Assembly (NCBI RefSeq): GCF_024138125.1
Contig: NZ_CP099993.1
Span: 682,001 to 746,000 of the forward strand
DNA from: Halorussus salilacus
Lineage (GTDB): Archaea; Halobacteriota; Halobacteria; Halobacteriales; Haladaptataceae
Length of the DNA stretch: 64,000 nucleotides
Reading direction: 5' to 3'
Below the pieces are notes generated by a model. That model saw only the letters and a list, made by a program, of their open reading frames with translations. It did not search any database and had not been told where the DNA came from. A program made the translations under genes and the position numbers. Shown one piece after another: positions 7,955 through 62,875 of this stretch. The stretch's first letter is position 1; every line of letters begins with the position of its first letter.

Positions 7955-8101
7955 ACTGGCGATTTTCTCTGCGGTTATCGAGTGCAGTAGCAAGCTCGCC
8001 GTGCAGAAAATAGACTCGCCGGGACCGAGCGGACGCGGTTTGTTCGCGAGGGTCGGCGAGTCCACGACTGCCTGACCAAGCGAAGCGAGGGAAGGAAGGA
8101 G

Positions 8102-8173
8102 TGGACTCGCCGGGATTTGAACCCGGGGCCTCTCCCATGCCAAGGGAGTGATCTACCGCTGATCTACGAGCCC
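8102..8173 (-). tRNA. tRNA-Ala (anticodon GGC)
   Basis: The minus strand folds as a full cloverleaf of 72 bases. The acceptor stem GGGCTCG/CGAGTCC has one G-T pair. The D arm contains AGATCAGCGGTAGATC. The anticodon stem CTCCC/GGGAG holds loop TTGGCAT, so the anticodon is GGC. The T arm has GGTTCAAATCC, and the discriminator base is A. CCA is not encoded. No intron is seen. Confidence 0.96.
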
Positions 8174-8212: not shown

Positions 8213-8434
8213 CTCTCGGAATCCTGCGCGGCGCGGCACTTCACCCCACGACCCGAATAGCAATCATTTAACTACCTCGGGCCATTCCTCCTGAACACGG
8301 GAACAGCACAGCCGCAAATCTGACTCGCCGGGCGATTGCTCGGCTCGGGATTGCGGACGTGCACGCGTCAGACCGACGCACCGCACGCCTACACTCAAAG
8401 CGACAGCGGTCTGTGCAGTTCCAATCCAGAAACC

Positions 8435-24000: not shown

Positions 24001-24120
24001 CCGCAACCACACGCCTCCCCAACCGACTGCGGTCCTCGGTCGCTTCGCTCCCTGCGGTCCTCATCCCTCACGCGGTTGGCGCGGCCCCAAACTGCGGGGC
24101 CGCGCCAGCACACGCCAAGG
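24001..24120 (+). repeat. Family B dispersed hairpin element, copy 1
   Basis: It shares with four other places in the window the blocks CCTCCCCAACCGACTGCG, TCATCCCTC and CGCGCCAGCAC. A perfect 11-base hairpin (24078-24088 with 24096-24106) forms its 3' half. It lies in the 777-base gap after the epimerase gene. No protein is encoded. The downstream short inverted repeat 24121-24157 abuts it. Confidence 0.8.
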
Positions 24121-24157
24121 GGACTGTCCCACCGGCTGATTCTTCGTGGGACAGTCC
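24121..24157. repeat. Inverted repeat between family B and family A elements
   Basis: GGACTGTCCCAC and its exact complement, 13 bases apart. The right arm contains ACAGTCCACC, which also precedes the other long copies of family A. Confidence 0.75.
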
Positions 24158-44830: not shown

Positions 44831-44983
44831 CGCGACCGCGACCGCAGGCCTCGAACCTCCCCAGCCTCTTGCGTTTCTCGGTCGCTCACTACGTTCGCTT
44901 CCTGCGATACTCATCCCTCGCGCGTGTCGGCGCGGCCGTCGGTCGCTTCGCTCCCGACGACCGCGCCAGCACGCGCCGGGCGG
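44831..44983 (+). repeat. Family B dispersed hairpin element, copy 2
   Basis: It contains ACCGCAGGCC, CCTCCCCAGCC, CTCATCCCTCGCGCG and CGCGCCAGCACGCGCC. The terminal hairpin arm is GGCGCGGCCGTCGG (44929-44942), matched with one mismatch by CCGACGACCGCGCC. It occupies most of the gap before YchF. Confidence 0.8.
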
Positions 44984-45087
44984 AGTAGTTCACGTTCGAG
45001 ACGGTCGCTGGACCACTCGGACTTCACATCTCCCCCGAAGTCCACGGAACCGAAAGGCAGTTCCCCCGGACGCCGGTACACTCTCGC

Positions 45088-49380: not shown

Positions 49381-49523
49381 CGCAACCGCACCGCGACCGC
49401 AGGCCACGACCCTCCCCAACCGACTGCGCTTCTCGGCTCCTCGTTTCACTCGTTGCCTGCGATGCTCATCCCTCGCGCGGTTGGCGCGGCCACTGACGGG
49501 CCGCGCCAGCACGCGCCGGGGTG
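49381..49523 (+). repeat. Family B dispersed hairpin element, copy 3
   Basis: It has GACCGCAGGCCACGACCC, TCCCCAACCGACTGCGCTTC and CTCATCCCTCGCGCGGTTGG. The terminal hairpin is GGCGCGGCC/GGCCGCGCC (49483-49491 with 49499-49507). It fills the gap between the UbiA and aminotransferase genes, antisense to both. GTCACCGATGAG precedes it, as at copy 61243. Confidence 0.82.
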
Positions 49524-49548
49524 GAAAAAGTCGCTATCCCGAAATTGC

Positions 49549-60659: not shown

Positions 60660-60935
60660 ATGAGCACCTCAGAAACCACGCGAGCCGACGAAAGCCGCCT
60701 CACGGGGGAGAACGTGACCGAATCAATCCGGGACCTCCCGCCGAGCGCGAAGCTGGTCGCCAAGGTACTGGAGTACAACGACACCCTGACCCAGAGCCAG
60801 ATCGCCGAGGAGTCGCTGCTCCCCGACCGGACGGTCCGATACGCGCTGAATCGACTCGACGACGAGGGACTGGTGGACTCGCGGTTCTCGTTCTCGGACG
60901 CCCGCAAGCGCCTCTACTCGCTAGATCTGGAGTAG
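60660..60935 (+). CDS. Small winged-helix transcription regulator (MarR/ArsR-like)
   Basis: 91 residues. The helix-turn-helix is LPPSAKLVAKVLEYND, TLTQSQIAEESLLPDRTVRYALNRL, with a wing LVDSRFSFSDARKRLYSL. No cofactor or metal site is visible. The dyad element 60593-60643 upstream suggests autoregulation. It is divergent from pan by 171 bases. Family B elements follow. Confidence 0.82.
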   Translation: MSTSETTRADESRLTGENVTESIRDLPPSAKLVAKVLEYNDTLTQSQIAEESLLPDRTVRYALNRLDDEGLVDSRFSFSDARKRLYSLDLE

Positions 60936-61014
60936 CTGGCTCTGCGAAAGTTCGGTTCTTCTCTACTTCGCTTCGCGTTTTTCGCCGTTCTCGCTTCGCG
61001 TTTTTCGCCTTTCC
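60936..61014. other. Repetitive spacer after the HTH gene
   Basis: Three near-copies of CTTCGCGTTTTTCGCC-type sequence (60968-61008) between the HTH stop and the family B pair. The T-runs could serve as terminators for the HTH transcript. No gene is seen. Confidence 0.5.
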
Positions 61015-61130
61015 ACCTCGGCGCGTGCTGGCGCGACCCGAATGTGGTCGCGCCAACCGCGCGAGGGATGACTGAGCGACTGAACGGAGCGAAGGAATCG
61101 GCTGGGGAGGCGTGTGGCCTGCGGTTTTCC
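61015..61130 (-). repeat. Family B dispersed hairpin element, copy 4 (inverted)
   Basis: Read on the minus strand it contains ACCGCAGGCC, CGCCTCCCCAGCCGA, TCATCCCTCGCGCGGTTGG and CGCGCCAGCACGCGCCGAGG. It pairs with copy 5 as the left half of a large inverted repeat. Confidence 0.82.
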
Positions 61131-61132
61131 TA

Positions 61133-61227
61133 GGTGACGTGCGAGCAGGACGCTTCGGCCTCGGTTACTTTCTGTAATCGCGCTCGCGTCACTTTCTGGG
61201 TCGTATCGTGTCTGCTCGCACGTCACC
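61133..61227. repeat. 16-base inverted repeat between the two family B copies
   Basis: GGTGACGTGCGAGCAG (61133-61148) and its exact complement (61212-61227) flank a 63-base centre containing ACTTTCTG twice. It is nested within the family B pair, making a palindromic region of about 360 bases. Confidence 0.85.
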
Positions 61228-61242
61228 GATGAGACCGCACAG

Positions 61243-61378
61243 CACCGCAACCGCAGGCCACGTCCTCCCCAGCCGACTGCGCTTCTCGGGCGTTCGCTTC
61301 GCTCGCGCCCTGTGATGCTCGTCCCTCGCGCGCCTTGGCGCGACCCAAACCACGGGTCGCGCCAGCACGCGCCGAGAG
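61243..61378 (+). repeat. Family B dispersed hairpin element, copy 5
   Basis: It has ACCGCAGGCCACGTCC, TCCCCAGCCGACTGCGCTTC and CGCGCCAGCACGCGCCG. The terminal hairpin is GGCGCGACCC/GGGTCGCGCC (61337-61346 with 61354-61363). It lies before mre11. Bases 61379-61555 after it hold no supported gene. Confidence 0.83.
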
Positions 61379-61555
61379 GAAGGTGAACATTTACTCGCTT
61401 CACACCCGTTCGACCACACACTTATACCCGATAACGGGACCATACCGGGGTATGTCGAACGCGGGGACGAGAATCACGACCGACCCGTTCGCGAGACCGT
61501 CGCCATCCACAACGTCGCGGAACGCCTTTAGGCTCCGGATGCGAACGTCGCCCCA

Positions 61556-62875
61556 ATGACACGGGTGATACACACGGGGGACACCCATCTCGGGTACCGC
61601 CAGTACCACTCCCCCGAGCGACGGGCCGACTTCCTCCAAGCGTTCGAGCAGGTGATAGACGACGCCATCGCCGAGGATGTGGACGCGGTGGTCCACGCGG
61701 GCGACCTGTTCCACGACCGGCGGCCCGACCTGTCGGCCCTCCACGGCACCATCTCGGTCCTCCGAACGCTCCGTGATGCGGACATCCCGTTCCTCGCCAT
61801 CGTCGGCAACCACGAGGGGACGCGGGGCCGCCAGTGGCTCGACCTCTTCGAGATGCTGGGGCTCGCCACGCGCCTCGGCGACGAACCCGAAGTAATCGGC
61901 GAGACCGCCTTCTACGGCCTCGACCACGTCCCCAAGTCGAAGCGCGAGGACCTCGACTACGACTTTTCGGACCACGACCGGGACCACGCCGCGCTGGTGA
62001 GCCACGGCCTGTTCGAACCCTTCGACCTCGGCGACTGGGACGCCGAGGAGGTGCTGACCGAGGCCAACCTCGACTTCGACGCGATGCTGTTGGGCGACAA
62101 CCACAAGCCCGGCCGGAAGGAGGTCGCGGGCGCGTGGGTCACCTACTGCGGGTCGACCGAGCGCTGTAGCACCGACGAGCGCGAGGACCGGGGGTACAAC
62201 ATCGTGGAGTTCGACGGCGAGGTCTCAATCACCCGACGAGGGCTCGACGCTACCCGAGACTTCGCGTTCGTCTCGGTCGACCTCGGCGAGGACGAGGGCA
62301 TCGACCGCGTCCGCGAGGCGGTCCGTGAGTACGACCTCGACGACGCGGTCGCCGTCATCGAAATCGAGGGCGAGGGCGAGCAGGTCACGCCCGCACGCGT
62401 CGAGGAGTTCGCGCTGGAGGAGGGCGCGCTCGTCGCTCGCGTCAAGGACCGCCGGGAGGTCGAGGAGAGCGACGAGGACGTCGAGGTGTCCTTTGCCGAC
62501 CCCGACGACGCGGTCCGAGAGCGCGTCCGGGACCTCGGACTCAGCGAGGCCGCCCGGGATATCGACGAGACGGTGCGGGCGAGCAAGGTCGCCGACTCGA
62601 ACGTCCGCGAGTCGGTCCGGAATCGCGTGAGCGCCGTGATGGAGGAAGGCGACCTCACGGCGTTCGAGTCCGCGCCCGACGACGGTGGCCCCGAGGACGA
62701 ATCGACCGACGCCGAACCGACCGACGCCGAACCGACCGACCCCAGAGGCGAACCCGAACCGGCCGACGCTGAATCCGGACCGGCCGAGTCGAAGCCCGAA
62801 TCCGACGAACCGGCGGCCGACGCCGAACCGACCGACGCTACCGACGACCAGCGTTCGATGGAGGAGTACCTATGA
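61556..62875 (+). CDS. mre11: DNA double-strand break repair nuclease Mre11
   Basis: 439 residues. The metallophosphoesterase motifs are D9-T-H11, GDLFHDRRP (Asp50), GNHEG (Asn85-His86) and GDNHKPG. A capping region follows, then a long acidic C-terminal tail with three (E)PTDA-type repeats around residues 384-395. It is 4 bases overlapped with rad50, so the two are cotranscribed. With Rad50 it processes DNA ends. The start is ATG 61556, as [13 protein letters not shown] matches the family N-terminus. Confidence 0.95.

Follow-up and report, generated by a model that had tools for sequence, protein, structure and literature searches.

BIME- and BOX-type repeats are modular mosaics in which palindromic boxes alternate in orientation. 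The REPINs of Pseudomonas and enterobacteria are doublets of REP sequences, predominantly inverted (93%), each REP measuring 20–40 nt (PMC3116915). Two kinds of small element from the haloarchaeon Haloquadratum stand closer in setting: PATEs, which are transposase-free, multi-copy elements with palindromes near their ends and are related to the ends of IS605-type transposons, and SMRs (~80–110 bp), which are defined by terminal inverted repeats and have no known mobiliser (PMC3119063). The structured repeat that we analyze here (herein referred to as family B) works most like REPINs, resembles PATEs and SMRs in its setting, and misses a defining feature of each. Like REPINs, it comprises interspersed extragenic palindromes with compensatory changes, hairpins predicted in single-stranded DNA or mRNA, single copies seen as remnants, and inverted doublets (30 of 30 in the genomes of Halorussus salilacus, G000, and its sister species G001) with preferred spacings (PMC3116915). 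It differs from REP sequences in the length of its unit (about 115–185 nt, with two hairpins and an invariant unpaired motif) and in having no conserved GTAG or CGTC tag at its hairpins (alignments A1 and A2), and from REPINs in that it spans a whole class and the arms of its doublets are not better conserved than other copies; unlike the REP/REPIN-RAYT system, it has no REP-associated Y1 transposase (PF01797) beside its copies. Haloarchaeal hosts, multiple transposase-free copies, palindromes near the ends, frequent nested insertions and the apparent absence of target duplication are shared with PATEs, and the last of these, with a comparable length and the lack of a known mobiliser, is shared with SMRs; nested hairpins in family B tails also resemble the insertion of SMR-A into near-terminal palindromes (PMC3119063). 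However, family B is absent from the ends of the IS605-type genes of H. salilacus and, unlike PATEs, does not require a Y1 gene, and the head and tail ends of its unit are not inverted repeats as SMR ends are, terminal inverted repeats occurring with family B just at some doublets, through their heads. From BIME- and BOX-type repeats, with which it shares a modular mosaic, it differs in sequence, size and domain of life, and homology to them is not expected. The account of PATEs and SMRs, in the part available to us, describes neither the family B core nor its structure (PMC3119063), and a literature search that left subscription papers mostly outside its reach found no earlier description, PATEs/SMRs and REPINs being nearest; provisionally, therefore, family B appears to be undescribed.

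The locus of interest is a palindrome in the window (the whole 64,000-nt stretch of H. salilacus DNA that was analyzed) between a MarR-type gene (60660–60935) and mre11 (61556–62875), which encodes a calcineurin-like phosphoesterase (Mre11) and is followed by the start of an AAA/SMC-type ATPase gene (Rad50). BLAST searches of the window and the whole genome show that the palindrome arms belong to a dispersed repeat, for which a covariance model (R1) was built from alignment A1, consisting of 29 folded copies from the H. salilacus genome. The initial annotation had proposed two facing copies with an exact 16-base inverted repeat and a 63-base centre, and its coordinates are correct: copy 4 occupies 61015–61148 on the minus strand (R1 match 61012–61119), with its tail hairpin lying at 61015 and its head module at 61148, and copy 5 occupies 61212–61378 on the plus strand (R1 match 61256–61381), its head module being at 61212 and its tail hairpin at 61378. 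The outer inverted repeat (61017–61376; arms 61017–61040 and 61353–61376) is 24 nt long and 100% complementary, and the inner arms (61128–61148 and 61212–61232; 21 nt, 90% complementary) contain the exact 16-nt repeat, formed by the head module of copy 4 (GGTGACGTGCGAGCAG, 61133–61148, minus strand) and that of copy 5 (CTGCTCGCACGTCACC, 61212–61227, plus strand). Further nested arms of 13–14 nt lie at 61058–61071/61319–61332, 61098–61110/61264–61276 and 61114–61126/61249–61261, and the 63-nt centre (61149–61211) is mostly variable among doublets. The near-invariant core of copy 5 (CCTCCCCAGCCGACT, 61264–61278, plus strand; per-column conservation in alignment A2) is unpaired in its 5′ part and leads into hairpin 1 (61275–61323, plus strand), where a conserved T.T mismatch (T61283, T61316) sits between covarying pairs, and then into tail hairpin 2 (61337–61363, plus strand; GGCGCGACCC...GGGTCGCGCC), where pairing is kept and sequence is free. 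The core of copy 4 lies at 61096–61110 on the minus strand and reads AATCGGCTGGGGAGG on the plus strand.

Folded as single-stranded DNA, the 370 nt from 61012 to 61381 form one long hairpin at −148.9 kcal/mol, compared with −85.8 ± 4.75 kcal/mol for shuffled versions (z −13.3), which bears out in silico the proposal that the whole element can fold as one cruciform. This symmetry is far beyond chance, and arises because two members of family B sit head to head. A recent inverted duplication of one arm was considered as its source and rejected, since the two arms (68% identical) are as diverged as random pairs of copies (mean 65%).

A family B unit of ~115–185 nt combines a core of ~115 nt with a head of 40–70 nt. 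From head to tail it consists of a head followed by (ACCGC)n, the head being GCTAGCTACTCCCGGTACCTATGAG or, as in the mre11 doublet, CTGCTCGCACGTCACC; an invariant unpaired CCACnnCCTCCCCAACC with the motif CCTCCCCAACC; hairpin 1; the segment CTCRTCCCTCGCRCG; a GC-rich hairpin 2 of ten pairs, every one of which shows double changes; and GCGCGCGCC. In an alternative arrangement, the head is a direct fusion to a structured repeat, “A” (GAAAGCCCC...GGCCCCTTTCAGTCC), again followed by (ACCGC)n. Within hairpin 1, pairs 28–90 and 30–88 flank the T29.T89 mismatch and run through all four Watson–Crick types (CG, TA, GC, AT), and T29 and T89 are each T in 95–96% of rows. Structure is conserved across the class: 81 class-wide matches contain 355 double-changed cells, against 96.8 ± 7.9 after shuffling and 38–62 with slid partners, and give a covariation score of 0.359 (control, 0.091). 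Among these matches, 93% of cells pair, a percentage that is partly built in because the alignment was fitted to the model; stronger evidence comes from the double changes and from the comparison with slid partners.

Other structured repeats accompany these units. Repeat “A” (GAAAGCCCCC..stem..CGCGAGCGGGCGGCCCCTTTCAGTCC) occurs at many loci (e.g., L277 at ~1361–1485, L009, L015 and L005), is often fused to family B heads, both here and in other genera, and has a long stem that is replaced yet still paired between the genomes G002 and G016. A third, repeat “C” (H. salilacus loci L326–L343), has the head GCTAGCTACTCCCGGTACC with (ACCGC)n and the tail GCCCCGTGCCTCCCCGCGTGCG-stem-GCGGCGCATCCCGTGG; the family B head motif also begins this repeat, and the heads are therefore exchangeable modules. 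No transposase was identified beside repeat “C”, which has the same head and another structured tail. A palindromic module, CCGGAAGACAAACCGCGTCTTCCGAGCAATCGCGCCGTCGGCGCGATGACG, is nested inside hairpin 2 of several copies (L031, L016, L236, L295 and L336), and is present in one and absent from the other of two close species at an orthologous site.

The R1 search of the H. salilacus genome returned 99 hits, four of which are overlapping hits or fragments of copies split by insertion, leaving ~95 copies spread round the chromosome at 6–17 per 304 kb. Three further copies lie in the window, all on the plus strand and all R1 matches, at 24005–24124, 44847–44985 (with a longer tail hairpin) and 49402–49525. 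Across the class, hits were found in 231 of 391 genomes and 54 of 86 genera, leaving 160 genomes without a hit; this search used stricter filters than the own-genome search, which cap its counts at 8 per genome, and is read as presence per genome, not as copy number. Within Halorussus, R1 gives 105 hits in G001 and 0 in G009, and counts of the core motif range from 3 (G007 and G009, at background level) to 144 (G006), with 89 in G001 and 123 in G003; the reversed pattern, used as a control, gives 0–6 per genome. A search of named genomes for the exact core pattern returned 120 stretches, nearly all of them haloarchaeal (Halorussus, Halosimplex, Natrinema, Haladaptatus, Haloterrigena, Halobaculum, Halococcus, Salinigranum and others); one contig came from a probably misbinned bacterial MAG. 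Plasmid records also contain family B; phage records gave no match, and a viral origin was set aside. That G009 and G007 are essentially free of the repeat, with other congeners holding more than 100 copies, makes these species useful for tracing the mobiliser, or a factor that silences the repeat. One genus from a different family (g10 of f3; L085, L090 and L094 at 1501–1614) retains a single copy at an identical position in several genomes, between consecutive same-strand genes that resemble, by eye, cbiG and a precorrin methyltransferase.

All 50 copies examined with callable neighbours are intergenic according to a purpose-made gene caller, lying between divergent (19), tandem (20) and convergent (11) gene pairs. 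In 32 of the 50, a gene start lies on the tail side. Orientation to genes is mixed, which makes it unlikely that the copies act simply as terminators or promoters. An intrinsic terminator is also rejected at the palindrome itself, as no terminator-like site (hairpin and T run) was found in 60900–61600 and copies also occur in divergent regions.

Where copies neighbour each other at less than 500 bp, they are inverted without exception, in 12 of 12 pairs in H. salilacus and 18 of 18 in G001, the latter having no direct pair besides overlapping hits. The spacing of these doublets is constrained. In H. salilacus, tail-to-tail pairs at 533k, 589k, 813k, 965k, 1883k and 2721k have 24–32 nt between model ends, with wider spacing at 304k and 2851k, and head-to-head pairs occur at 495k, 743k (mre11), 987k and 2786k. 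Of 11 tail-to-tail spacers measured in G001, nine are 23–27 nt long and the others 52 and 78. Spacers also recur: those at 589k and 1883k in H. salilacus are homologous (GCGCGATACTGAC type), and at least six of the G001 tail-to-tail spacers form one family of the GTGACC.ACGGACG..TTCGCG type. The head type of copy 4, GTGACGTGCGAGCAG...CTGCTCGCACGTCAC, is seen again at 2786k, and the six head-to-head doublets of G001 all have this head, of GTGACGTGCGAGCAG type, in common with the mre11 doublet. Some tail-to-tail doublets (589k, 533k and 1883k) are bounded by inverted GCTAGCTACTCCCG heads, as single units are not. No target-site duplication was seen by eye at three doublets.

Turnover is visible between two close species, G002 and G016, whose mre11 genes are 97.8% identical. 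Most copies are orthologous between them, and movement is therefore slow or rare. At one locus, however, units A-B-A′ in one species correspond to A alone in the other, with a stem that is wholly different yet paired, and at another a nested hairpin lies inside hairpin 2 in one species only, the same nested module being found in H. salilacus copies. Comparison of the two genomes yielded no clean empty site, just unit loss or gain and nested insertions, which are signs of insertion and turnover. H. salilacus has six TnpB genes and two Y1 TnpA genes, each of the latter neighbouring a TnpB gene in the manner of IS605-type elements; none of the six TnpB loci has a family B core within 1 kb of either end, no copy lies beside the Y1 genes, and no Y1 TnpA gene was found in the copy-rich genomes G001 and G003. 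The REP-RAYT and IS605 routes are accordingly unsupported, and the possibility that family B belongs to a TnpB element, as its right end or its guide-RNA portion, is rejected for H. salilacus.

We hypothesize, and consider somewhat probable, that family B is mobile but non-autonomous: a REPIN-like mosaic repeat that acts as DNA in single-stranded or cruciform form. The palindrome would then be a head-to-head doublet of such an interspersed repeat, whose unit probably works as DNA, either extruded or single-stranded (e.g., on the lagging-strand template). We infer mobility in trans, recognition at the DNA level and the doublet as the copied unit: an enzyme acting in trans would recognise the hairpins and copy or move units into intergenic DNA, mainly as inverted doublets, with single copies representing decayed or half units. 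At mre11, a single insertion of this kind, made before the split from one sister species, would have placed the doublet upstream of the promoter. Against a mobile repeat stands the conservation of the core over 54 genera, which is unusual for a parasite, and against REPIN-like mobility the fact that no candidate mobiliser, clean empty site or target-site duplication was found. A bolder version, tentative and in our judgment doubtful, is that of a class-wide haloarchaeal system, REPIN-like but independently arisen in archaea, in which an undescribed enzyme, other than a Y1 HUH transposase, copies the two-hairpin DNA unit as inverted doublets by recognising the invariant single-stranded motif and the T.T mismatch bracketed by covarying pairs. 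If family B is what we propose, well over half of the sampled haloarchaeal genomes hold an uncatalogued structured repeat that forms cruciform-prone doublets and makes up ~0.5% of a copy-rich genome. Tractable archaea would thereby offer naturally occurring palindromes on which to test how Mre11-Rad50 and other nucleases handle hairpins, and family B poses the question of what moves a REPIN-like repeat in the absence of a Y1 transposase.

The strong class-wide covariation and the invariant unpaired motif would also fit a conserved structured RNA (a small RNA, a 5′ or 3′ UTR element, or a signal for processing or termination) that became multiplied among haloarchaea, and the retention of single copies at the cbiG/precorrin methyltransferase-like site in several genomes of a different genus, together with the somewhat more frequent facing of the tail side toward a gene start, points the same way. 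We nevertheless consider this reading unlikely. Neither the 3′ nor the 5′ ends of genes are preferred and orientation to genes is variable, no terminator-like T run adjoins the palindrome, and the family is wholly absent from one congener (G009). Searches of Rfam returned no family at gathering score, so that no known RNA is recognised, and the weak hits are mostly microRNA precursors, which are chance matches to a long hairpin. In addition, just 1.5% of family B stem cells are G.T pairs (0.6% if one column is left out) and 3.4% are A.C mismatches, whereas 18 tRNAs from the same loci, a set pre-filtered for good pairing, have 5.9% G.U and no A.C; as an indicator of strand, the wobble pairs disagree, one favouring plus and the others minus. 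Such strand-symmetric departures are moderate evidence for a DNA hairpin or cruciform over RNA. Pairing within the arms might also be maintained by quasi-palindrome correction through template switching and not by selection on shape, and G.T and A.C intermediates are indeed nearly absent at pairs 28–90 and 30–88 despite their four Watson–Crick types. Template switching would, however, erase the T.T mismatch that is kept in ~95% of copies, and we regard this explanation as very improbable.

A role for the copies as host DNA sites under selection (in nucleoid organisation, in supercoiling, or for a recombination or replication protein) would accommodate both their chromosome-wide spread and the conservation of sequence and shape in 54 genera. 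It sits poorly with copy numbers that range from none to more than 100 among congeners, with the 160 of 391 class genomes that have no hit at the stricter setting, and with repeated spacers and mosaic nesting that look like insertion history, and it seems to us distinctly unlikely. The initial annotation had also suggested a meaningful tie to mre11-rad50, while allowing for coincidence, and it is the coincidence that the data favour. In support of a functional tie, such as a self-regulating cruciform cut by the Mre11-Rad50 complex, the last base of the palindrome lies ~40 nt upstream of a TATA-like TTATACC ahead of mre11, and the inverted pair is retained in the sister species G001, whose doublet is orthologous to that of H. 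salilacus, with inner heads in common and differing arm hairpins. Yet the upstream regions of orthologous mre11 genes, which the annotation had proposed as a check, show that related genomes keep the gene without the palindrome: every one of the 18 Halorussus genomes carries mre11, and a family B core lies within 1.5 kb upstream of it in only four species (as an inverted pair in H. salilacus and G001 and as a single copy in G014 and G008), leaving 14 of 18 without one, including G009, which keeps mre11 and has no R1 hit in its whole genome. At least 11 other inverted doublets occur among the ~95 dispersed copies of H. salilacus, and G001 carries the same type of head-to-head doublet at five places other than mre11. 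The mre11 arrangement is therefore an instance of a genome-wide pattern, its place before this gene looks accidental, and the link to Mre11, which we reject, has hardly any probability left. The case counsels counting the relatives of a striking palindrome before a function is assigned to it.

The surroundings of the palindrome contain other features. Just after the MarR-type gene, two 23-nt direct repeats (60968–61013; TCGCTTCGCGTTTTTCGCC(G/T)TTC) with T5 runs look like a putative archaeal T-rich terminator. Between the palindrome and mre11, a short leader reading frame of ~30–35 codons (61453–61560) overlaps the mre11 start by ATGA, and its C-terminus (SRNAFRPRTQTT..) is conserved at the same place in nearly all 18 Halorussus species, suggesting a possible translationally coupled leader peptide. 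Elsewhere in the window are a tRNA-Ala(GGC) (8101–8173, minus strand) and an S15-Halobacteria ribosomal protein leader (8297–8362, plus strand).
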